Source: Microbacterium sp. 3J1
GTDB taxonomy: Bacteria; Actinomycetota; Actinomycetes; Actinomycetales; Microbacteriaceae
Reading direction: 5' to 3'
NCBI RefSeq assembly: GCF_001049495.1
Contig: NZ_CDWI01000004.1
Coordinates: forward strand, 62,001 to 126,000
DNA length: 64,000 nucleotides
The notes under the pieces are model-generated. The model did no database searches and was not told where the DNA came from. It was given only the letters and a program-made list of their open reading frames with translations. Position numbers and translations under genes: made by a program. Positions 19,403-36,493 of this stretch are shown here, piece by piece (position 1 is the first letter of the stretch; each line of letters opens with the position of its first letter).

Positions 19403-19891
19403 ATGGCTGACAGTTCCTTTGACATCGTCTCGAAAGTGGATCACCAGGAGGCCGAGAACGCCCTGAACCAGGCACGCAAGGAGATCGAGCAGCGCTACGA
19501 CTTCAAGGGTGCCGGCGCCTCCATCGCCTGGAGCGGCGAGCAGATCCTGATCATCGCCGGCACCGAGGAGCGCGCCAAGGCGGTGCTCGACGTCTTCCAG
19601 TCGAAGCTCATCAAGCGCGGCATCTCGCTCAAGAGCCTCGAATCCGGCGAGCCGTTCGCGAGCGGCAAGGAGTTCCGCATCGTCTCGACGCTCAAGGACG
19701 GCATCTCCTCTGAGAACGCGAAGAAGATCGGCAAGATCATCCGCGACGAGGGCCCCAAGGGCGTGAAGAGCCAGATCCAGGGCGACGAGCTGCGCGTGCA
19801 GTCCAAGAGCCGCGACGACCTCCAGGCGGTCATCGCGCTGCTCAAGGGCTCCGACCTCGACATCGCCCTGCAGTTCATCAACTACCGGTAA
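19403..19891 (+). CDS. yajQ: YajQ-family nucleotide-binding protein, 3' end supplied by the integrated element
   Basis: A 162-residue protein of the UPF0234/YajQ family, two ferredoxin-like domains that bind c-di-GMP or nucleic acid in studied members. It starts [23 protein letters not shown] and ends [10 protein letters not shown]. The last five codons coincide with the left attachment repeat. Beyond the repeat the sequence is GGTAA, so the Arg codon becomes CGG and the stop TAA. At the right attachment site the ancestral end reads CGCTGA, giving the same protein. The gene is therefore intact, but its native terminator is now 16.6 kb away. Confidence 0.95.
19873..19887. other. attL core repeat
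   Basis: GTTCATCAACTACCG is identical to 36479-36493. Here it encodes the last residues of YajQ (FINYR). The sequences flanking the two copies differ on both sides, so 15 bp is the maximum repeat. Confidence 0.92.
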
Positions 19892-19916: not shown

Positions 19917-20150
19917 GTGCCCGAGTCCGCGCCCAGTCCGCAACGCGATCTAGAACAGCTCGTCCGTCGCGTGGTTCGCGAGGAGCTGCAAGCCCTCGTG
20001 AGCCCGCGAGCGGTGCAGCCGGTCGGTGGCGAAGACGCGATTGAGAGCACCCTCGAGTTTCTCGAGCGCATCGACCCGCTGGGCACGTTGACACAAGAAG
20101 AGGCGCGCGGCCTGCTCCTCGTCCGCTTCCCCCACCTGTTCCTCAGATAG
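19917..20150 (+). CDS. Small acidic protein next to attL
   Basis: A 77-residue frame with a GTG start, 25 nt beyond the yajQ stop and overlapping the convergent integrase gene by 8 nt. The sequence looks protein-like: a basic helical N-terminal part (RDLEQLVRRVVREELQALV) and a C-terminal part ending RIDPLGTLTQEEARGLLLVRFPHLFLR. A GGGG stretch lies at -13. I do not recognise the family. It may be a real att-proximal gene, or chance. Confidence 0.5.
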   Translation: MPESAPSPQRDLEQLVRRVVREELQALVSPRAVQPVGGEDAIESTLEFLERIDPLGTLTQEEARGLLLVRFPHLFLR

Positions 20151-21273
20151 CGATGACTTGTGCCATGAAGGCGGTCGTCGCCGCCCGAGTCTTGTCCTCC
20201 GCGGACGGCCACAGGTGGCTGTAAGTGTTCAGCGTGATCGACGGCTGAGAGTGTCCGAGCGCGCGCTGTACAGTCACCACATCGCACCCGGACGCGATCA
20301 AGTTCGACGCGAAGGTATGGCGCAGCGTGTGGATCGTCACGTCACTGCTCAACCCCGCCAGGCTACGGATGCGGCGCCACTCCTCACCGGCACTGTTCCG
20401 GTTGAACAGATGCCCCATCGGCGTGCGGAAGAGGAATTCCTGCTTTACAGAAAAGCTCAACATGTCGATGAGCTCGACCGGCACGAATACGTCGCGCTCC
20501 GACCCGGCCTTCGGCGGCACGATCGTCGTCGTCGGGATCGACGTACCCTGAACCTGCCTACGCACTGAGATCGTCCCCGCGGCTCGGTCGATGTCGCCGC
20601 CCTGCAGGCCCGCGGCCTCACCAAGTCGAAGGCCGGCGAACACGCAGGCCGCGACGAACGGTCGGAACTCCCCCGCGACCTCGAGCGCCGCGTTCACCTG
20701 ATCGGCGGTCAGGATCTTGACCGCAAGTTCCTTCTTCCGCAGGCGGGGCGTCTTCACCCGGCTCGCGGGGTTGCGCGCGATCACCTGGTTATCGACAGCC
20801 GCCCGGAACGCCATCTGCACGTAGTTCAAGCGCGTGCGGATAGTCGAGGCGGCGAGCCCGCGCTCAGACTCCTTCGTTACCCACGTCTGCACATCGGCGT
20901 TCTTCACGTCGCGGATCGCCTTTGATCGCCACGGCACCGACTCCACCGCGGTCGTCGCCGCCGTCGCGGTTCCCTCAGCCCAGACTTGCATGCTCATCCA
21001 GCGGGAGACCCACTCATCCCACGTTGCGCGACCCGCGCTCGGGTCAGCCCACTGCCCCGTGACAAGGCCCGCCGTCTGCTCGTCTAGCCAGCGCTGGGCC
21101 GCGCGCTTCGTCTTCTCGTGCTTCGTGTGCTCCTTGCCGGCGTGGTCTCGATAGCGAGCGCGCCAGATCTCCAAGACCGGCTCAGTCTTCCGCTGGCCCT
21201 TCTCGTTGAGCACGAAGTGCCCATCGGGGCCGAGGACGGGGCGGCGAGGGTGCCCGATCGACTTACTTGCCAT
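20143..21273 (-). CDS. int: Tyrosine-type site-specific integrase
   Basis: Catalyses integration of the element at the yajQ end. The 376 residues comprise an N-terminal arm-binding region (~15-75), a SAM-like core-binding domain (~85-170) and the catalytic domain. Catalytic residues visible are Arg216 (AGLRLGE), Lys255, His315 and Arg318 (HTLRH), His341 (LGHSQ) and the nucleophile Tyr351 (NTYSHL). The stop lies 270 bp from attL, the standard position for such elements. It overlaps the upstream XRE gene by 11 nt, so both are probably co-transcribed from the control region. Confidence 0.97.
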   Translation of the reverse strand: MASKSIGHPRRPVLGPDGHFVLNEKGQRKTEPVLEIWRARYRDHAGKEHTKHEKTKRAAQRWLDEQTAGLVTGQWADPSAGRATWDEWVSRWMSMQVWAEGTATAATTAVESVPWRSKAIRDVKNADVQTWVTKESERGLAASTIRTRLNYVQMAFRAAVDNQVIARNPASRVKTPRLRKKELAVKILTADQVNAALEVAGEFRPFVAACVFAGLRLGEAAGLQGGDIDRAAGTISVRRQVQGTSIPTTTIVPPKAGSERDVFVPVELIDMLSFSVKQEFLFRTPMGHLFNRNSAGEEWRRIRSLAGLSSDVTIHTLRHTFASNLIASGCDVVTVQRALGHSQPSITLNTYSHLWPSAEDKTRAATTAFMAQVIAI

Positions 21274-21814
21274 CCGCGGCCTCTCGAAGCTCCGCTAGGC
21301 GAGTGAAGTCCGTCCAGACGAGCGCCTCAGGCGCATCTCGCGTCCAATCTCCCGCGACCTCGGCCGCCCACGTCGCAACCACCGACGCGGGGAACTCGTA
21401 GCCGGCGAGCGCCTCGCGAGCCTCCTGGGCAGCTGCGTCGTCGTAGCGTGAGAGCCGCGACCGGAACTCTGCAGACCAGTGCAGCAGCTCCGTGTAGTCA
21501 GCGAGATCCCCCGCCACGCGCATCATCGAAGACACGAGGTTGCCGCGGATCTTGTCGGCCATCCTGAGCGACTCTTCGAGATCGGTACCGCGAGTCATTT
21601 CGTCGACGGAGCTCCCGAGTATCTCCGCAAGTACGCGCGCTTCTCCGAGCCGGATCGGTCGATCGCCCTTCTCGGTCCGACTAACGGTCATCTGCGAGTA
21701 GGTCTCGAAGCCTCGAGCGATCATCTGACGCGCGAGTTCGCTCTGACTCATGCCGGCCCCATCACGGAGCTCCACCATCTTCCGCGCGAAGTTCGCCTCA
21801 TCGTCTCTTTCCAT
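21263..21814 (-). CDS. XRE-family repressor-like regulator of the element
   Basis: A 183-residue protein with an N-terminal HTH (about residues 10-62: FARKMVELRDGAGMSQSELARQMIARGFETYSQMTVSRTEKGDRPIRLGEARVLAEIL) and a helical C-terminal half rich in Trp and Ala that may dimerise or bind a ligand. Its position, between integrase and divergent early genes, is that of a CI- or Stl-like master repressor. The start is ambiguous between ATG at 21812-21814 and one three codons upstream. Confidence 0.88.
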   Translation of the reverse strand: MERDDEANFARKMVELRDGAGMSQSELARQMIARGFETYSQMTVSRTEKGDRPIRLGEARVLAEILGSSVDEMTRGTDLEESLRMADKIRGNLVSSMMRVAGDLADYTELLHWSAEFRSRLSRYDDAAAQEAREALAGYEFPASVVATWAAEVAGDWTRDAPEALVWTDFTRLAELREAADGK

Positions 21815-21823
21815 AAGCAACAT

Positions 21824-21905
21824 GTTCCCACAATTTAGTGGGTAGTTGCACGTTGCTGTGGAATGCGTTATCGTGGTGGCATCCACAGAATAGATGGGAG
21901 AGCAA
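21824..21905. promoter_or_regulatory. Divergent control region with operator-like repeats
   Basis: Plus-strand promoter: TTGCAC (21846-21851), 17-nt spacer, TATCGT (21869-21874). Two inverted repeats flank it: CCCAC-N6-GTGGG (21828-21843) and CTGTGGAATGC with GCATCCACAG (21855-21889, one bulge). These are likely binding sites for the XRE repressor. The start of the plus-strand HTH gene follows a GGGAG ribosome-binding site. Confidence 0.6.
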
Positions 21906-22115
21906 ATGACTACGATCGCGGATCAGCCGTCGACAATGACGAAGCTGCTTTTCGTCGACGCGGCTGCAGAGCGGCTAGGGCGTACCCCTTCCCAGCTCCG
22001 CTGGATGATCCACAGCGGAACAGCGCCGAAGCACGCGAAGATCGCCGGCCGGATTGTCTTTCGCCAGTCGGACATCGATCAGTACATCGAAGACGCGTTT
22101 GCGGAGGCGGGATGA
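21906..22115 (+). CDS. Helix-turn-helix excisionase/MerR-like protein
   Basis: A 69-residue protein with a winged HTH of the excisionase type: LLFVDAAAERLGRTPSQLRWMIHSGTAPKHAKIAGRIVFRQSDIDQYIEDAF, about residues 14-65. The RIVFRQSDIDQYI wing is characteristic of HTH_17/Xis folds. The ATG at 21906 is chosen over an in-frame ATG 12 nt upstream because GGGAG then lies at the right distance. It is the first early gene, so it could be Xis or a Cro-like activator. It overlaps the next gene by 4 nt. Confidence 0.8.
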   Translation: MTTIADQPSTMTKLLFVDAAAERLGRTPSQLRWMIHSGTAPKHAKIAGRIVFRQSDIDQYIEDAFAEAG

Positions 22116-22896: not shown

Positions 22897-23219
22897 TGGC
22901 CTGCCGGTTCGGTTGGTGCGAGACGCCCGCCGATCTCCACGCCAGCGACACCAGTCATCACTCGCGCGAGTTGGGTTACGGAATGATGTTGACCGTCGAT
23001 CTGCAGGGCGAACCGATCTCCATGTGGATGCCCGACTGGGACGAGTGGTGGATCGACAAGCCGGAAGACGTCGACACCGAGTACGCGGGAGTCGCCGCGA
23101 TGTTGCGCGACTTGCCTGCCAATTACACGGCGTTCCGCACGGCACTCGTGAGCGATCCGCTGTTCGCCGATGAGGTCGCCGCGATGAAGGCCAAGGATGC
23201 TCGGGAGGCGTGCAAATGA
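22896..23219 (+). CDS. Hypothetical early protein with N-terminal Cys/His cluster
   Basis: A 107-residue protein opening MACRFGWCETPADLHASDTSHHSREL. Two Cys and two to three His in the first 25 residues could bind zinc. The middle, DWDEWWIDKPEDVDTEYAGVAAMLRDLP, is acidic and aromatic. It overlaps both neighbours by 1-4 nt, so it is translationally coupled. The N-terminal pattern recurs in actinophage proteins of unknown role. Confidence 0.7.
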   Translation: MACRFGWCETPADLHASDTSHHSRELGYGMMLTVDLQGEPISMWMPDWDEWWIDKPEDVDTEYAGVAAMLRDLPANYTAFRTALVSDPLFADEVAAMKAKDAREACK

Positions 23220-23638
23220 GCGCGTCGGAGGTCAGGCCGAATCCGGGCGAAGTGCGCGCATGGGCGAAGAAGAACGGCATCCGAGTCAGTGGGACGGGGA
23301 ACATCTCTCGGCACCTTCGTGAGAGCTACCTCGAAGCGAACCCGGACGTCGAGCTGCAGGCCCGCAATGCGCGCCCTGACCTCTTCGCCCTGGCCGACGA
23401 CATGGTGGAGGCAGAGATGGTCCGCACAGGGCGTCTGAGCTTTGAGGCATCCGTTGCTGCCCCAACAACAGTTGAGCCGCCGCGCGAAGAGCCGAGGTCT
23501 CTTGCTGAGTGGCTGAGGCTGCGCGACGAGCTCGCCGCCACGATCGCCGAACACGCGCCTCAGGGCGTCTCCGATTCCTTCCGAGAGGCCGCAGAGGCCC
23601 TCCTCGTCAAGGGATGGATGAGGAGCGCCGCAGCATGA
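23216..23638 (+). CDS. Protein with Lsr2-like DNA-binding domain
   Basis: A 140-residue protein. Residues 8-42 (PNPGEVRAWAKKNGIRVSGTGNISRHLRESYLEAN) match the C-terminal DNA-binding domain of the nucleoid protein Lsr2, with the RAWA and RVSGTGNI positions. The Lsr2 oligomerisation domain is missing, and the rest is an unrelated acidic helical part. Phages and satellites carry such Lsr2-like proteins, possibly to antagonise host xenogeneic silencing. The ATG overlaps the upstream stop. Confidence 0.75.
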   Translation: MSASEVRPNPGEVRAWAKKNGIRVSGTGNISRHLRESYLEANPDVELQARNARPDLFALADDMVEAEMVRTGRLSFEASVAAPTTVEPPREEPRSLAEWLRLRDELAATIAEHAPQGVSDSFREAAEALLVKGWMRSAAA

Positions 23639-23693: not shown

Positions 23694-23720
23694 CCAATTG
23701 AAGACAGAAAGGAGGTGAAC

Positions 23721-24587
23721 ATGGCCTCAACCGATGGATTCGTCAGACTGCCGAACTGGCTGATCGACGACAGTGACCTGAGTTGGAACGAGTTGGCCGT
23801 GTACATCGTCCTATTACGATTCCGAGACCCGAAGACGGGTGAATGCTTCCCCGGCATGACGACGATCGCCGACCGCGCCCGAATCAGCCGCAAGACAGTG
23901 GAACGCGTAATCCCGAAGCTCGAGGCACGTCAGATGATTCGGGTCAAGCGGCGCAGCACCCTCACGGTGAACACACCGAACGTGTACACCGTGGCTCTCG
24001 CGGATGAGACCCCGAAATTCATCTGGGAGAAGAGTGCTCGTGGTCGACGGGTGCCCAAGCATCCGAGGAAGAAACCCACAGACACAGAGTCTGTGGGTGC
24101 GGATGCCCCCGGGGAACCCACAGACACAGAGTCTGTGCCCACAGACACAGAGTCGCCACCCCCACAGACACAGAGTCGCCCTAACAAGATCCAAGTGAAG
24201 AAGATCCATCAACAAGCTTTAACACCCACTTTCTCCGAAAGCGGGTCCGAGGATTTCTCATTCGATGGGCCAGGGGCCGACAGGGCTACTGAGAGACAGG
24301 TTGCCTACCTGAAGGATCTCGCGATCCACCTCGGCTACGAGACCGGCGGCGGTGTACCCAACGATCTGCAACTGCAGCGTTGGCGGAAACTCAGCCGGGA
24401 AGAAGCAGACACTCAGATCCGCGGGTACCTCAAGGCTCTCGGCAAACCGGACGAGATCTACTACCCGCAGGCAGGCGACCCTGAGTTCGCGGCACTCAGC
24501 GACGCGGGCAAAGAGTTCGCCGAATCGGCAGGCGACCCAGCCAGCGTCTGGGAGTACGGATTCAAGCTCAAGGAGAACGGCATATGA
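23721..24587 (+). CDS. Replication initiator with helix-turn-helix, lambda-O-like layout
   Basis: A 288-residue protein. Residues ~1-95 form an HTH_36-type winged helix (NELAVYIVLLRFRDPKTGECFPGMTTIADRARISRKTVERVIPKLEARQMI). A disordered linker (~115-160) is encoded by the four iterons and repeats PTDTES. The C-terminal domain (~180-288) has ATERQVAYLKDLAIHLGY and could recruit a helicase or its loader. The ATG at 23721 is chosen for its near-perfect AGAAAGGAGGTGAAC ribosome-binding site; an in-frame start at 23655 would translate through the hairpin. N-terminal DNA-binding domain, origin repeats in mid-gene and a separate C-terminal domain is the layout of lambda O. Confidence 0.85.
   Translation: MASTDGFVRLPNWLIDDSDLSWNELAVYIVLLRFRDPKTGECFPGMTTIADRARISRKTVERVIPKLEARQMIRVKRRSTLTVNTPNVYTVALADETPKFIWEKSARGRRVPKHPRKKPTDTESVGADAPGEPTDTESVPTDTESPPPQTQSRPNKIQVKKIHQQALTPTFSESGSEDFSFDGPGADRATERQVAYLKDLAIHLGYETGGGVPNDLQLQRWRKLSREEADTQIRGYLKALGKPDEIYYPQAGDPEFAALSDAGKEFAESAGDPASVWEYGFKLKENGI
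24075..24240. other. Candidate replication origin: four iterons plus AT-rich tract
   Basis: The 17-bp core CCCACAGACACAGAGTC occurs at 24075-24091, 24117-24133, 24138-24154 and 24161-24177, all direct. Spacings are 42, 21 and 23 bp, close to whole helical turns. The first copy extends into an 8-bp-arm palindrome (24075-24097) and the second nearly does. The following 60 bp (24181-24240) are 60% A+T by count, far above the surroundings, and fit a duplex-unwinding element. Function is inferred. Confidence 0.75.
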
Positions 24588-24742
24588 GCGCACCCAAACC
24601 CGCCAACTTCAGAGCTCTCGCCAACGCATGGGACTCACCGATCGCGTTCGCCACCGAGTTAGCCAAGTACTACTCGCAACTCACTGAGGCCGGATACATC
24701 ATGCCGGCGCCCGACATCACCAGCGAAAGGAAAGACTCTTAG
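24584..24742 (+). CDS. Small protein after the initiator
   Basis: A 52-residue frame starting MSAPKPANFRALANAWDSPIAFATELAKYYSQLTEAG. The ATG overlaps the initiator stop by 4 nt, with GGAGAACGG upstream. It is mostly predicted helix. Its position right after an initiator could suggest a helicase-loader-like partner (lambda P position), but it is far too short for that family. Unknown. Confidence 0.6.
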   Translation: MSAPKPANFRALANAWDSPIAFATELAKYYSQLTEAGYIMPAPDITSERKDS

Positions 24743-25319: not shown

Positions 25320-25706
25320 ATGAGCCGACGACTCGAGAACGCATTGGTTCTCACCGGCGGAGACGCCCTGTTGCTCTATCAAGCGGCTCATCTTCGTGAG
25401 CTGAGAGTGAAGGCACGCGGTCGCTCAGAACGGCTATACGAACTGCTCACCGACATCACCAAGACTGCCTTAAGCCACAGCGATTCCGTCGACGGAAAAG
25501 TCCCGAGGGAAACGACGGAAAGAGACGAGAGTCAAGACATGGAAATCGTGAACGTCGGACAGCTCGCACGCCGAGCAGGAGTCACGCCGCGCACGATCCG
25601 CAATCACATCCTTCTCGGTCTCATCAAGGCCGAGAAGGCGAACCGCACCTGGCTCATCAGCGCTCAGGACGCGGATCAGTACATCAGTGGCCGTCAAGCG
25701 GCCTGA
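25320..25706 (+). CDS. HTH protein (excisionase/MerR fold) with helical N-terminal extension
   Basis: A 128-residue protein. Residues 1-72 are a charged helical region; residues ~75-125 form a winged HTH (NVGQLARRAGVTPRTIRNHILLGLIKAEKANRTWLISAQDADQYISG). GAGAGGAGTAAAGC before the ATG is a strong ribosome-binding site. This is the second Xis-like HTH in the element. It could regulate late genes or act in excision. Confidence 0.75.
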   Translation: MSRRLENALVLTGGDALLLYQAAHLRELRVKARGRSERLYELLTDITKTALSHSDSVDGKVPRETTERDESQDMEIVNVGQLARRAGVTPRTIRNHILLGLIKAEKANRTWLISAQDADQYISGRQAA

Positions 25707-26881: not shown

Positions 26882-27349
26882 ATGACAACACTGAAAGAGA
26901 AGATCGAGCGGGAGAAGAATCTCGCCGAGGAGCTGATCGCAGAGGCTGAGGCTTACTACGCCTCTGTCGGGCCCGTCGAGGTGGATGCGGTGCTCGGCGA
27001 GACGAAGGTCACCTTCCAGGTGCCGTTCATGTACCCAATCGATTTCAACGAGCTGGCCTCGACCCACTGGCCGCGACCTGGGGTTGCGGTGGATGCGCCG
27101 CTGTGGTTCAACCTCGATGCGGTCACGAAGAACTACCCGAACATCACGATGGTGGTCGACGGCGAAGAGGACGACCTGTACCGCGTCCGCAACAAGGAAG
27201 CTGTCTACATCTTCCCGGAGCTCTACGCGCAGATGCCGCCCGAGGACGCGCAGAACCTTCGCATGGCGGTGTGGGCGCTGAACATCTGGGAGCCGCAGCA
27301 GCGTCGTGAGAAGAAGGTCGCCGAGAAGAAGGAGGCCGAAAATGGCTGA
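26882..27349 (+). CDS. Putative tail assembly chaperone
   Basis: A 155-residue acidic protein with a helical N-terminus (MTTLKEKIEREKNLAEELIAEAEAYY), a central beta-rich part (VTFQVPFMYPIDFNELASTHWPRPG) and a charged tail ending QQRREKKVAEKKEAENG. It lies directly before, and overlaps by 8 nt, the tape-measure gene, the position of the assembly chaperone in siphophages. The usual second product made by -1 frameshifting is not obvious here. GAGAGGAATCAAC precedes the ATG. The role is inferred mainly from position. Confidence 0.65.
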   Translation: MTTLKEKIEREKNLAEELIAEAEAYYASVGPVEVDAVLGETKVTFQVPFMYPIDFNELASTHWPRPGVAVDAPLWFNLDAVTKNYPNITMVVDGEEDDLYRVRNKEAVYIFPELYAQMPPEDAQNLRMAVWALNIWEPQQRREKKVAEKKEAENG

Positions 27350-30068
27350 TCGGGTGGTGAAGGTGACCTTGAAGGCGGTCGTCTCGGACTACGAGAGGTC
27401 GATGCGTGACGCAGCGAACGCGACTGCCACGGTGGGCACCGAGGCGGAGAAGCTGGCGCAGAAGAAGCAGGCGTTCCAGCAGCTTGGTGCCGCCAGCCTG
27501 ACGATGGGCGCGGTGCTCTCGGCAGGCCTTGTGCTCGCGTCGAAGGCGGCGATGGATTTCGACGCCCAGATGTCCAACGTTCAGGCCGCAACGCACGAGA
27601 CTGCGGCGAACATGGATCTGCTGCGGCAGGCGGCTCTGGATGCTGGCGAGTCGACCGTGTTCTCCGCTACCGAAGCTGCGCAGGCCATCGAAGAACTGTC
27701 GAAGGCTGGCGTCTCGACGGCTGACATTCTCAGCGGCGGTCTGACTGGCGCTCTGGATCTCGCTGCGGCTGGTGGCGTGGGTGTCGCCGAGGCTGCGGGG
27801 ATCGCAGCCACGGCCCTGAAGCAGTTCAACCTTAACGGGTCTGACATGGCGCACGTCGCCGATCTGCTTGCCGCGGGGGCGGGCAAGGCGATGGGCGACG
27901 TCACGGATCTGTCGCAGGCGCTCAACCAGTCCGCTCTGGTGGCGAAGCAGACCGGCCTGTCGATCGAGGAGACGACCGCGGGACTGTCAGCATTCGCGGC
28001 TGCCGGTTTGCTGGGCTCGGACGCAGGTACGAGCTTCAAGACGCTCCTGCAGTCGCTCACGCCCACGTCCTCTGCTGCGGCTGAAGCGATGGAGAAGTAC
28101 AACCTCCAGGCCTATGACGCTCAGGGTAATTTTGTTGGCCTGTCGGAGTACGCGGGCAAGCTCAAAGAGGGATTGTCCGGGCTGAGTGTGGAGCAGCAGA
28201 ACGCGACCCTCAAGACGATCTTCGGCGCCGATGCTGTGCGCGCTGCCACGGTGCTCTATCAGCAGGGCGCAGAAGGCATTGATGCGTGGACGGAAGCCGT
28301 CGATGACCAGGGCTACGCGGCCGAGACGGCCCGTGTGCGGCTCGACAACCTGAAGGGTGACATCGAAGCACTCGGAGGCGCATTTGAGACGGCTCTGATT
28401 GATACAGGGTCGACGGCGAATGACACACTGCGGGCAATGGTGCAGGCTCTCACCGGGCTGGTCGGTATCTACAACGATCTGCCGGCGCCCGTGCAGGCGT
28501 CGGTCATGGCTCTCGGAGGTGCTGCGGCGGCTGTCGCGCTGACCGGTGGCGCCGCGTTCCTCGCGGTTCCGAAGTGGCTCGAGTTCAAGGCCACCGTCGA
28601 GGCGTCGACCTGGACGATGAAGGGTATCGGGTTCGCGGCGGGTGGGGCTGCAGCGGTGCTGGGTGGCCTGTTCCTGGTGGTCGGCGAGCTCGCCGCCAGT
28701 CACCAGCGCGCAGAGCAGAAGGCACAGTCGTACGCGGACACGCTCGCGGAGGGCACGCACGAGATCACCGACGCCACGCGGGAGATGATCGCCACGAGCC
28801 TCACCGCAGATCAGTCGTTCCTGTGGATCTCGCAGGGGTCGCTCGCCGATAACGCCGAGACGCTGGGCCTGTCTATCTCGACGGTTACGGATGCAATCTC
28901 GGGCAACGTGGATGCGCTTGAGGAGGTGCAGGGCGCGATCAAGAAGGGCATCGACGAGGGTTACAAGCCATCCAAGGATGCCAACCTCGATTTGTACGAC
29001 GCCGCGGTGCTTCTGCAGTCGGGTATCGAAGGCGAGGTCGGCGCACTCGACAAGGCGACCGAGAAAGCCCGCCAGTCGGCGGAGGCCACCAAGGGCAGCG
29101 CGGAGGCCACGCAGACGGCCACCGAGGCGTATCAGGCCGAAGCGGACACCGTCAGCAACCTGAACTCGCAGCTCACCGATCTCATCAACCGAATCAACGG
29201 TGCGAACGATGTCGCGGTGAACGCCATCACTGCGAACGCGGACTATCTGTCGGCGCTCGACGGGCTGGGTGCGCAGGCAGAAAAGCTGGGGCTGTCACTT
29301 GACGAGACCTCAGTGTCTGGTTCCGCCAACGCGGCAGCAATGGGTGAGCTCGCATCGAAGGCCCGCGACGCCTCGCAGGCGCAGTTCGAGCAGGATCTCA
29401 CGACGATGTCCGCGGATGAGGCCGCGAAGAAGTGGAACGGGACTCTCGCGGCTCAGCGGCAGGCATTCATCGACTCCGCGACCGCCGCCGGCTATAACGC
29501 CGGCGAGGTGAAGGCTCTCGCGGATCGCATCTTCCAGATGCCGTCCGAGAAGGAAGTGGACATTCTGGTGGAGACGGCTGCGGCCCAATCGCAGATCGAC
29601 AAGTTCATCACCCTCAACAACGGCAAGCGCGTGAAGGTGTTCGTCGATGCTGAAGGCGGTCAGTCCTTCCGCGTGGGTGGCACGACGGTCTCTCCGGGCA
29701 TGGCGGCTGGCGGCCCGGTCATCGGCAGAGGAGCCAAGGGTGTCGATTCCGAGCTCCGGATGCTCGCGCCCGGTGAGCATGTCGTTACAGCACCTGAGGT
29801 CGACGCGGCCGGGGGACACAGTGCCGTCGAAGCATGGAGAGCCCAGCTCCTGACTCCCACCGCACCGGAGCCCGTCTATGTCCGCACGGGAGACGTCTGG
29901 AATTACGGGGGCGGCCAAGCAGGCTCGCAGCCCATCTCTCTCGACGGCCTCGCGATCACCGGAACGCTCGAGATCGGCGGTGACGGCCTCGCCCGGATCG
30001 TCGATGGGCGAATCAATCAGTACGACGAGTCGCGGGCGATGGTTTCTCGGGGTGGGAGTCGACCGTGA
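27342..30068 (+). CDS. Phage tail tape measure protein (TP901 type)
   Basis: Sets tail length and helps DNA ejection in siphophages. The 908 residues include the TP901 core near the N-terminus: FDAQMSNVQAATHETAANMDLLRQAALDAGESTVFSATEAAQAIEELSKAGVSTADI (~residues 66-122), with GLTGALDLAAAGGVGVAEAAGIAATALK after it. Two hydrophobic segments (~400 and ~435) are typical. The C-terminal part carries AAGGPVIGRGAKGVDSELRMLAPGEHVVTAPEVDAAGG, a common tape-measure tail. GAAGGAGGCCGAAA precedes the ATG. The frame is intact, which argues against passive decay. Confidence 0.93.
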   Translation: MADRVVKVTLKAVVSDYERSMRDAANATATVGTEAEKLAQKKQAFQQLGAASLTMGAVLSAGLVLASKAAMDFDAQMSNVQAATHETAANMDLLRQAALDAGESTVFSATEAAQAIEELSKAGVSTADILSGGLTGALDLAAAGGVGVAEAAGIAATALKQFNLNGSDMAHVADLLAAGAGKAMGDVTDLSQALNQSALVAKQTGLSIEETTAGLSAFAAAGLLGSDAGTSFKTLLQSLTPTSSAAAEAMEKYNLQAYDAQGNFVGLSEYAGKLKEGLSGLSVEQQNATLKTIFGADAVRAATVLYQQGAEGIDAWTEAVDDQGYAAETARVRLDNLKGDIEALGGAFETALIDTGSTANDTLRAMVQALTGLVGIYNDLPAPVQASVMALGGAAAAVALTGGAAFLAVPKWLEFKATVEASTWTMKGIGFAAGGAAAVLGGLFLVVGELAASHQRAEQKAQSYADTLAEGTHEITDATREMIATSLTADQSFLWISQGSLADNAETLGLSISTVTDAISGNVDALEEVQGAIKKGIDEGYKPSKDANLDLYDAAVLLQSGIEGEVGALDKATEKARQSAEATKGSAEATQTATEAYQAEADTVSNLNSQLTDLINRINGANDVAVNAITANADYLSALDGLGAQAEKLGLSLDETSVSGSANAAAMGELASKARDASQAQFEQDLTTMSADEAAKKWNGTLAAQRQAFIDSATAAGYNAGEVKALADRIFQMPSEKEVDILVETAAAQSQIDKFITLNNGKRVKVFVDAEGGQSFRVGGTTVSPGMAAGGPVIGRGAKGVDSELRMLAPGEHVVTAPEVDAAGGHSAVEAWRAQLLTPTAPEPVYVRTGDVWNYGGGQAGSQPISLDGLAITGTLEIGGDGLARIVDGRINQYDESRAMVSRGGSRP

Positions 30069-30114
30069 CCAGTTCGACCCAAGCCAACGCACCCTCCGAC
30101 CGAAAGGCACTCAC

Positions 30115-30297
30115 ATGACACGACCGACATTCGCCAGGGACGAACGTAATCGACACCTCATCGTCCCGAACGACGATGCTGTGCGCGTCGCACCGGGCCT
30201 CTATGAAACGGGAGCTCTCAGCGCCGTTCAGCCCGGGCTCTACCCACTCGACGCAGCGCAGGAAGAGATCTCCCCGATGGAAGGAATCCACCAATGA
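30115..30297 (+). CDS. Small tail-region protein
   Basis: A 60-residue protein, MTRPTFARDERNRHLIVPNDDAVRVAPGLYETGAL and an acidic C-terminus. It overlaps the spike gene by 4 nt and lies 46 nt after the tape measure. It may be a short adaptor, chaperone or connector for the spike. I do not recognise the family. Confidence 0.65.
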   Translation: MTRPTFARDERNRHLIVPNDDAVRVAPGLYETGALSAVQPGLYPLDAAQEEISPMEGIHQ

Positions 30298-31928
30298 CTC
30301 ATCGACTCGTAGCCGTAGACGACTCTGACTACCGGCTCCCCGACCCCGTGATGCAGGCGCTCGAACTCGACTTCGCGCGCGAGGCCACGATCGACGCCAA
30401 CCGCCACGGGGTGAAAGCGGACGGCATCACCGACGACTCACCGGCATGGCAGGCGATCGTCAACACCGCTCTCACGGGCTCGGTGATCACCTGGACCGGG
30501 CGCTCGATGCTGCGGACTCCCATCATCTGGAAGACGGGCATCTCGCTGATCGGTGAAGGCTGGGGCCGGTCCGTCCTGGCAACGGTCGACAACGGCATCC
30601 CCACGTGGCACGCCGCCATCCGCTGGGTGGAGGGCGACGGGGCGAGCATCACGAACACGCTCGAGGATTGCGTGTGGGCGAACTTCGAGGTGGACGGATC
30701 TCAGCTCTCGACCGGAGGACAGTACAAGATCTCCGCCAAGGGACTCTTCACGCTGTATCACCGGAACTGCCAGTGGCGGAACCTGTACATCCACGACACC
30801 CAGGCGACCGGCCTCGGCTGCGACTTTATGCCCGGATCGCTCATCACCGGATGCCTCGTCACCGACTGCGGCTACATGAACCCGGGCAACGCGGGTGGAG
30901 GCGCGGGCATCGGCATCGGAACCGGCGCGTGGGAAGTCGAAGACGTCATCATCACCGGCAACACAACCCGCAACAACGGCAACTGGGGCATCTTCGTCGA
31001 GGTGCAGGAGTACACCGACGCCTATATCAACCAGGGCATCCGGGGTACGGGTGCGCGCATCATCGGCAACACGTCGTACCACGACCGCGTGGGGTTTGGT
31101 GACCGCGGCACCGTCGGCACGCTCATCCAGGGCAACGTGGCGCACTCGCCCACAGTCTCCGGAGTGAGCGTGTCGTTCGGATCTCGCGAGGGAGCCGTGC
31201 TGGACAACCACGTGTACAAGTCGGGGGCAGTCGGCATCTTCGTGCAGACAAACGTGACGGATGAGGTTGTCGCCGGCAACCACGTGTATGACTCGGGCAC
31301 GCACGGTATCCACATTCAGGCGATGGCCGCGGCGAACAAGGCGATCTCGATCCGAGACAACGTTGTGTCCCGGTCAAACAACTGCGGCATTCTCGTGGAC
31401 TGCACCAGCGGTTCGACGGATGGTCTCATGATCCGCGGAAATAGGGTGTGGAACAACGGAAAAGCGGGCGGCGTCTACACGCAGGGCATCCGCATGGAGG
31501 CCAACGCCTCGGCAGCATCAATTTCGGGCAACCGCGTCTTCGACGACCAGGCTACGAAGACCCAGGGAGCCGGCCTGCAGTTGTCAGCTTCAAACACACG
31601 CACCCTCTCCGACGCGTCCATCGACAACAACAACTTCACTGGATCGACAGTCGCCGTCAGCCTCAGCTCCCACACGCGGACGAACGTCACAATCGGCGAC
31701 AACGTCGGCTACCTGACGGCGAACCAGGGAACTGCGACGATCGCCGACGGCGCGTCGACAGTGACTGTGCCACATGGCCTGGGTGGGGTGCCCAGTCAGG
31801 TGCAGCTCACCCCGAACGGGTCCGCTCAGGTGTGGATCAACGCGAAGGGCGTCAGCAACATCATCATCCAGCGTCTCGGGACCAGCGGGCCCCTCACTGT
31901 GGACTGGACCGCGACCTACCGTCCTTAG
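30294..31928 (+). CDS. Right-handed beta-helix tail spike (pectate-lyase-like)
   Basis: A 544-residue putative receptor-binding or depolymerase spike. After an N-terminal ~45 residues comes the HGVKADGITDDSPAWQAIVNTAL motif that opens many phage beta-helix spikes. Parallel-beta-helix rungs with repeated GN/DN turns follow (VIITGNTTRNNGNWG, VLDNHVYKSGAVGI, VVAGNHVYDSGTHGI, SIRDNVVSRSNNCG, IRGNRVWNNGK). The last ~65 residues, starting GTATIADGASTVTVPHGLGG, form a separate beta domain seen at the end of phage receptor-binding proteins. No minor tail proteins separate it from the tape measure. Confidence 0.85.
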   Translation: MTHRLVAVDDSDYRLPDPVMQALELDFAREATIDANRHGVKADGITDDSPAWQAIVNTALTGSVITWTGRSMLRTPIIWKTGISLIGEGWGRSVLATVDNGIPTWHAAIRWVEGDGASITNTLEDCVWANFEVDGSQLSTGGQYKISAKGLFTLYHRNCQWRNLYIHDTQATGLGCDFMPGSLITGCLVTDCGYMNPGNAGGGAGIGIGTGAWEVEDVIITGNTTRNNGNWGIFVEVQEYTDAYINQGIRGTGARIIGNTSYHDRVGFGDRGTVGTLIQGNVAHSPTVSGVSVSFGSREGAVLDNHVYKSGAVGIFVQTNVTDEVVAGNHVYDSGTHGIHIQAMAAANKAISIRDNVVSRSNNCGILVDCTSGSTDGLMIRGNRVWNNGKAGGVYTQGIRMEANASAASISGNRVFDDQATKTQGAGLQLSASNTRTLSDASIDNNNFTGSTVAVSLSSHTRTNVTIGDNVGYLTANQGTATIADGASTVTVPHGLGGVPSQVQLTPNGSAQVWINAKGVSNIIIQRLGTSGPLTVDWTATYRP

Positions 31929-36478: not shown

Positions 36479-36493
36479 GTTCATCAACTACCG
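36479..36493. other. attR core repeat
   Basis: Identical 15 bp to 19873-19887. It is followed by CTGA, restoring the ancestral yajQ end ...TAC CGC TGA. Confidence 0.92.

Follow-up and report, generated by a model that had tools for sequence, protein, structure and literature searches.

A candidate replication origin inside an HTH_36 initiator gene of a prophage-like element in Microbacterium

Does the rep gene of Microbacterium sp. 3J1 carry, in its own middle, the origin at which its product would start replication? In the window (the whole 64,000-nt stretch of DNA analysed here), rep is an uninterrupted ORF (23721-24587) with an ATG start, which a sequence-only reading had taken for the gene of an HTH-containing initiator with iterons in its linker and an A+T-rich tract behind them. 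The HTH_36 and PHROG_270 matches, the iterons and the tract all support that description. The features concerned, in window coordinates, are:

20143-21273, minus strand: tyrosine integrase (Pfam 2.3e-20; PHROG_1 1.3e-61)
21263-21886, minus strand: repressor-like HTH protein (Pfam, PHROG)
21894-22115, plus strand: excisionase-like HTH_17 protein (Pfam, PHROG)
23710-23717, plus strand: Shine-Dalgarno-like AGGAGGTG of rep, just before the ATG (read directly)
23721-24587, plus strand: rep, HTH_36 winged-helix replication initiator of 288 aa with a putative origin inside (Pfam, PHROG_270)
23754-24005, plus strand: winged-helix domain, residues 12-95 (AlphaFold2; 10-residue blocks at pLDDT 85-98 over residues 11-90)
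23889-23927, plus strand: putative recognition helix, residues 57-69 (role judged from the model)
24075-24091, plus strand: iteron 1, forming with 24092-24097 a perfect 9-bp dyad with 5-bp spacer
24117-24133, plus strand: iteron 2, exact CCCACAGACACAGAGTC copy
24138-24154, plus strand: iteron 3, exact CCCACAGACACAGAGTC copy
24161-24177, plus strand: iteron 4, exact CCCACAGACACAGAGTC copy in a different codon phase
24181-24240, plus strand: A+T-rich tract, candidate DNA unwinding element (60% A+T; window mean 32.4%)
24183-24207, plus strand: 10-nt repeat pair AACAAGATCC / AAGAAGATCC, 15 nt apart, inside the A+T-rich tract (9 of 10 matches at lag 15)
24276-24575, plus strand: C-terminal helical region, residues 186-285, of no known family (blocks at pLDDT 51-76)
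24584-24742, plus strand: 52-aa ORF overlapping the rep stop codon (no PHROG match)

Rep matched Pfam HTH_36 at 2.8e-9 (37.1 bits against a cut-off of 25) and PHROG_270, replication initiation protein, at 3.5e-20; it also matched several O-like and DnaD-like replication PHROGs and, in its N-terminal part only, PHROG_186 (3.1e-13), with the TrmB, GntR and MarR families listed below the Pfam cut-off. As for other initiator domains, DnaD_N stayed below its Pfam cut-off (17.4 bits against 27), RepA_N (PF06970) gave no Pfam match, and PF04492 was absent from the eight Pfam families at E<=0.1 (lambda O itself: 5.7e-36). Because these domains were tested for and not found, Rep was not filed under PF04492, RepA_N or DnaD. 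In the AlphaFold2 model (mean pLDDT 66.5), the linker between winged helix and C-terminal region (residues 101-190, encoded by the iteron and A+T-rich region) has a pLDDT of 31-51 and is, on this prediction, probably disordered. No PHROG matched the C-terminus at E<=5, and its best match in phages had E 0.8; it was matched in two other genomes, both of the same genus, of the 148 searched. Foldseek matches 1-3 and 5 of the model in the PDB were, by their titles, plasmid-initiator entries (4pql, 4pt7 and 5kbj), which we take to be RepA of staphylococcal plasmids; the best match was weak (E 1.6e-3; TM 0.25 by query length), with nothing at E<=0.001, and a sequence search of solved structures found nothing better than E 1.7.

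At the DNA level, CCCACAGACACAGAGTC is present as four exact 17-mers on the plus strand in the middle of rep, at the starts that the sequence-only reading had given (24075, 24117, 24138 and 24161) and at spacings of 42, 21 and 23 bp. Across the 3.4-Mb genome (30 contigs), these four were the only exact copies, accompanied by one match with two mismatches elsewhere, and the reversed pattern used as control gave no match. When rep was resampled by codon (2000 versions encoding the same protein), the longest word present in four copies was 17 nt as observed versus 9 nt at most after resampling, and the longest in three copies was 17 nt versus 14 nt at most, while the observed two-copy word of 23 nt was reached once among the 2000 versions. 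Iterons 1-3 share one codon phase and iteron 4 has another (0,0,0,2), encoding PQTQS instead of PTDTES. Because copy 4 is read in another frame than copies 1-3, the constraint lies on the DNA and not on the PTDTES peptide. The perfect dyad CCCACAGAC-ACAGA-GTCTGTGGG (24075-24097) has iteron 1 as its left part, and the core GAC-N5-GTC, read from the sequence, is kept in all four copies. With 10.5 bp to the turn, spacings of 42 and 21 bp make 4.0 and 2.0 turns, in agreement with the earlier placement of the iterons on one face of the DNA; the 23-bp spacing departs from it by about 70 degrees. The 60 bp of 60% A+T reported behind the iterons were borne out (24181-24240): such a value is reached by 3e-5 of the window's 60-bp stretches. 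Moreover, single-strand folding of 24070-24245 was far better than that of shuffles (z -4.07).

The relatives were drawn from HTH_36 matches, from five genome or contig searches, which contributed their best loci (up to 30 each), and from two annotated collections, of which three of six matches were fetched; this gave 116 winged-helix sequences, 99 of them distinct (window included). Test 1 compared a DNA-repeat statistic with synonymous-codon shuffles (lowest possible p = 0.005): 37 of the 99 family members, window included, reached p<=0.005 versus 2 of 159 other ORFs taken from these loci as controls, 53 versus 8 reached p<=0.05, and 21 of the 23 relatives closest by score did so. Test 2, a triple-lag statistic that counted triplets at 20-25 bp exclusively, selected 32 members versus no control at 0.005 and 49 versus 9 at 0.05. 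By either test at 0.05, repeats were found in 42 of 51 full-length strong members (at least 50 bits, window included), one of eight short proteins without linker and 16 of 159 controls (14 of 131 among ORFs of at least 180 aa); they were absent by both tests in 9 of the 51, including the gene of phage DelaGarza (L017). These counts overstate independence, because the 53 repeat loci fall into 29 clusters at 50% identity, and three loci were kept among the 53 although the repeats picked are not iterons: the program chose repeats of the downstream kind in L060 and L065, and the matches in L111, a short ORF, are scattered.

Among Bacillota plasmid relatives, 7 of 10 passed the repeat test, with the program choosing other repeats in some; spacings of 21-24 bp were seen in L195, L197, L199 (not significant), L200 and L202. 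A new sample of 22 loci gave 13 new members and two duplicates, and 9 of the 13 had repeats at 0.05, two far from the winged helix (L204 and L209). Scanning viral contigs with the whole query gave no relative, nor did a scan with one relative, and a single scan of genome contigs gave three.

Layout was likewise shared. In 52 of the 53 loci the best repeat begins at most 29 nt ahead of the winged-helix end and at most 167 nt past it. Spacings of up to 60 bp numbered 150, of which 69 were at 21-24 bp (peak at 22 and 23) and 54 were multiples of three, about the third expected without a reading-frame effect; no spacing of 20-25 bp was present in 15 of the 53 loci. Copies occupied more than one codon phase in 46 of 53 repeat loci (window included), which, with the mixed phase in rep itself, supports the earlier view of PTDTES as a by-product of the DNA repeat, and linker peptides differed among the relatives compared. 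The 60 nt behind the last iteron exceeded the gene mean in A+T in 37 of the 38 loci with a 20-25 bp spacing (means 0.46 versus 0.36; Wilcoxon 1.7e-7), and the iteron consensus was dyad-symmetric at p<=0.05 in 30 of 53. A helicase-loader, ATP-binding or helicase gene lies directly downstream in 6 of 13 annotated relatives, with none seen in the other seven. The in-gene origin layout appears common to many actinobacterial relatives, with differing recognition sequences. By eye, the C-termini of L007, L008, L009, L017, L018 and the window differ widely despite the common winged helix, as if N-terminus and origin had been exchanged as a module.

Whether the iterons vary together with the HTH sequence, a check that the sequence-only reading had proposed, was answered positively within limits. 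Over 48 loci, iteron similarity correlated with recognition-helix identity (Mantel r 0.233, p 0.001) and equally highly with identity of the rest of the domain (0.229). With the rest removed, a partial sliding scan had its highest peak at ISRKTVER, where the recognition helix starts (partial r 0.236), and its next at ECFPGMTT (0.218); it was positive over most of columns 33-74 (between the peaks and on to the wing) and at 18-20, and close to zero both in helix 1 and at the end of the domain, the permutation p standing at its floor of 0.002 for some 70 overlapping windows in a set that contains related sequences. Furthermore, among pairs less than 35% identical outside the helix, iterons were similar in 9.4% of the 96 pairs whose helices were at least half identical versus 0.5%, 1.3% and 0% of 209, 469 and 135 pairs in the lower helix classes. 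These correlations fit a winged helix that would bind the iterons, and are no proof of it.

A rep orthologue in the same genus (L154; genome G968, contig C2, about 664.5-667.7 kb) is in three pieces, interrupted at two places. Its helix reads ISRKSVERAI and its iterons CACAGACTCCGAGTC, at 21 and 23 bp as in the window; each of the three clear copies has TCCGA in place of ACAGA as its 5-bp spacer, with the dyad core unchanged. The third piece holds these three clear iterons, and by eye the frame just upstream of it looks like an IS3-type transposase.

A second repeat, about GAACCATCAG, lies behind the iterons in 15 of the 53 loci and is strand-specific and frame-independent. In the 100 nt behind the iterons, AACCRYYA occurred 32 times, in 15 of the 53 loci (9 clusters) and in all codon phases (9, 17 and 6); its density there was 6.1 per kb (rest of the genes, 0.16; control ORFs, 0.12). 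Codon shuffles gave 9.5 (at most 15), and the other strand of the same 100-nt stretches had none. Repeats matching at 9-10 of 10 positions at lags 9-15 behind the iterons numbered 38 versus 8.8 expected. In a motif-first scan of viral contigs, which used the motif pair alone with letters taken from the rep family, 32 stretches were found: 21 (16 DNA-similarity groups) lay in ORFs with a rep-family winged helix (22.8-82.1 bits), 72-213 nt behind it, and all 21 had a repeat pair with 12-13 of 13 identical bases in the 160 nt upstream. The other 11 comprised one truncated gene with iterons (L180), one stretch at a contig end (L166) and nine unrelated ones, four of which were one and the same gene and whose upstream repeats reached 9-12. 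Carriers of the downstream repeat include 21 of the viral-contig loci L155-L184 and the actinobacterial L015, L105, L109, L113 and L122. A second pattern, GAAGTACTACCC twice, hit six stretches, all in contigs already in the locus set, and an exact tandem GAACCATCAG pair was absent from 296 genomes of the class. In the new sample the downstream motif occurred 8 times versus 1.9, with 5 of the 8 from close relatives of the first set (L136 and L138).

Of the downstream repeat, the window has at most a divergent version (AAGATCC twice, 15 nt apart): its related pair AACAAGATCC / AAGAAGATCC is possibly such a form of the relatives' repeats. Codon shuffles, too, often give a lag-15 pair of this kind (seen in 10 loci against 3.9 expected). 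For comparison, the B. subtilis DnaD recognition element is given the form TnnT in the available part of PMC10201434. Three-nucleotide phasing of A (TnnT on the other strand) gave 45 runs in the first 53 loci versus 16.0 after base shuffling and 22.1 after codon shuffling, but step-4 runs were raised too (28 versus 16.0 and 11.5), and a run of four was absent from the window tract. Three-base phasing was not reproduced in seven Bacillota genes (13 versus 10.3) or nine new actinobacterial genes (3 versus 2.2), and it was dropped.

A broader reading would make such in-gene origins bipartite: private iterons evolving with the recognition helix would be joined to a melting-tract repeat (about RGAACCRYCAG, copies 10-15 nt apart) that many actinobacterial elements have in common and that is read single-stranded by a conserved partner, either the C-terminal domain or a factor of the host such as its helicase or primase. 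The melting-tract repeat would then correspond, in phages, to the DnaA-trio or to the DnaD recognition element. We hold this bipartite reading to be rather doubtful, and slightly more so than before the new sample, because the excess there owed 5 of its 8 occurrences to L136 and L138.

As for its surroundings, rep appears to sit in a prophage-like element. A 15-bp direct repeat, GTTCATCAACTACCG, is found at 19873-19887 (the 3' end of a DUF520/YajQ-type gene) and at 36479-36493; the two copies bracket about 16.6 kb that holds the integrase, repressor, excisionase, rep, tape-measure and beta-helix genes, and are likely the att sites of the element. Just upstream of rep, 23210-23638 encodes a protein with an Lsr2-type DNA-binding domain. 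A small HTH protein is encoded at 25320-25706 (terminase small subunit PHROG_57, 7.4e-7; excisionase PHROG_66, 1.6e-5), and 27306-31928 holds a tail tape-measure gene and a right-handed beta-helix gene, possibly for a tail-spike. No P-type helicase loader was found beside rep, where the next gene, on the other strand, has no significant match, and Pfam and PHROG recognised no helicase-loader gene next to rep. Capsid, portal and large terminase were absent from about 15 ORFs searched in PHROGs and three more searched in Pfam alone. The element may be a prophage remnant or a satellite-like element, and because it looks reduced, the origin may be a relic.

We consider it highly probable that rep is an HTH_36 theta-type initiator gene whose middle is the element's own origin, working like lambda O/ori and the pPR9 initiator. 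N-terminal winged-helix dimers would bind the four dyad-type iterons, the bound dimers would deform the DNA and melt the A+T-rich tract (24181-24240), and the C-terminal region would then recruit the host replicative helicase or primase. The iterons could instead serve autoregulation: as operators bound by the winged-helix protein, they would let it repress or tune its own operon, and replication would start elsewhere. HTH_36 resembles transcription regulators such as the TrmB, GntR and MarR families seen below the cut-off, dyads suit a repressor, and the iteron-helix correlation argues for recognition and not for its purpose; autoregulatory operators would look partly similar. However, the sites lie about 350 bp inside the gene, the best repeat is near the winged-helix end in 52 of 53 loci with an A+T-rich tract after it, 6 of 13 annotated relatives adjoin replication genes, and pPR9 replicates with such a module according to the available part of PMC5703833; we regard the operator role as unlikely. 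Still less credible is a coding repeat, in which a PTDTES linker would have grown by slippage and been preserved for its peptide: three of the four copies do share a frame, and the low-confidence linker resembles disordered ones, but the reading is already contradicted by copy 4, which is out of frame, and by the mixed phases of 46 of 53 loci, and neither the 54 multiples of three among 150 spacings nor the differing linker peptides of the relatives agree with it.

Direct repeats also occur at partition sites, which gives some ground to the view that the array is a partition or incompatibility site and not an origin, and repeats are mentioned for mycobacteriophage parS in the available part of PMC7157519. 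Against it, no ParA or ParB match was found among ten scanned proteins around rep, and the array lies inside an initiator gene and before an A+T-rich tract; we give this view hardly any weight. A different matter, compatible with the in-gene origin, is whether the window copy still functions or is a former origin now silent in a defective prophage remnant. Silence has a sizeable chance, short of even: the scanned ORFs gave no capsid, portal or large-terminase match and the same-genus orthologue is disrupted, but rep is open, its iterons are identical and its ribosome site is present, a satellite or integrative element would need no head genes, and the ORFs scanned are a part of those in the element.

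Because the whole candidate origin lies within about 900 bp, the rep segment could serve as a minimal replicon. It offers a precise and inexpensive way to test phage-type origins in actinobacteria, for which the available part of PMC7157519 leaves the place of the prophage origin open. The iteron-helix correlation provides a set of natural pairs of initiator and origin that might reveal a recognition code, and the downstream repeat hints that a helicase-loading step may be shared. In open-licence PMC, titles and the starts of abstracts reported neither the family-wide pattern nor the downstream repeat, a search that says little on subscription journals.

An origin inside the initiator gene is itself known for lambdoid O genes (PMC7466680, available part), and the lambda-like organisation first suggested for rep is supported by mid-gene iterons, mixed phases and the A+T-rich tract behind them. 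The lambda O gene (PF04492) has, like rep, four iterons in its middle, past the part that encodes the DNA-binding domain (spacings 20, 24 and 23), codon phases that are mixed as in rep (0,2,2,1), and 68% A+T behind the last iteron versus 52% in the gene; each of its iterons is an inverted repeat and O is a dimer, as stated in the same part of that source. On the other hand, rep differs in having no PF04492, no P-like neighbour gene, a different C-terminus and another iteron sequence. Its protein had been thought unrelated to O and the architecture possibly convergent. The first is not supported, since Rep and lambda O match the same O-like PHROGs 345, 391 and 678 (N-terminal halves on overlapping profile positions in 345 and 678, not overlapping in 391), nor is the second, which rested on it. 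With hhalign, family profiles aligned Rep 3-76 with O 24-102 at 95.7% over 74 columns, but nine low-scoring HTH proteins likewise gave 90-96% over 30-77 columns against the Rep profile and 4-91% against O, two of them (L028 and L029) having iterons. Against O the window sequence alone gave 57.9%; the window repressor gave 1% and reversed O 0.2%. The strong form of unrelatedness is therefore rejected by the common PHROGs and the profile alignment; in view of the specificity controls, a specially close kinship is suggested by these sequence comparisons and no more than that.

Plasmids offer a parallel too. According to the available part of PMC5703833, RepA_N plasmids such as pSK41 also have the origin inside the initiator gene; as in rep, pSK41 (PF06970) has four Rep boxes central in the gene and an N-terminal winged helix, and the linker of its initiator is dispensable. 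The top structural matches of Rep are plasmid initiators, but it has no RepA_N Pfam match and its C-terminus is not recognisably similar. The same part of PMC5703833 describes plasmid pPR9 as having a hybrid initiator in which a pfam13730 (HTH_36) N-terminus replaces RepA_N, with the origin region replaced too: pPR9 and pSK41 differ in a ~500-bp block, N-terminal domain plus origin, as one unit, with the C-terminal domain separate, and pPR9 replicates autonomously. Rep resembles the pPR9 initiator, known here by description, in its pfam13730 N-terminal domain; unlike rep, pPR9 is a Bacillota plasmid with a pSK41-type C-terminus and demonstrated autonomous replication.

Among phages, RepA-like gp88 of Arthrobacter phage Kovu is a sequence relative of Rep (32% over residues 7-146), and its gene has in-gene iterons of its own, with GGGTAGTCCC at 25, 24 and 23 bp, and a helicase-loader gene next to it; unlike the window element, Kovu has another iteron sequence, another C-terminus and is a complete phage. 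For mycobacteriophage RepA, an N-terminal HTH initiator, the available part of PMC7157519 suggests an origin upstream of or within repA, reports no repeated motifs in the regions it examined and leaves the place of the origin open. Therefore the kind of origin proposed here is already known from lambda O, pSK41 and pPR9, and the rep gene itself is a new member of it, from family HTH_36.
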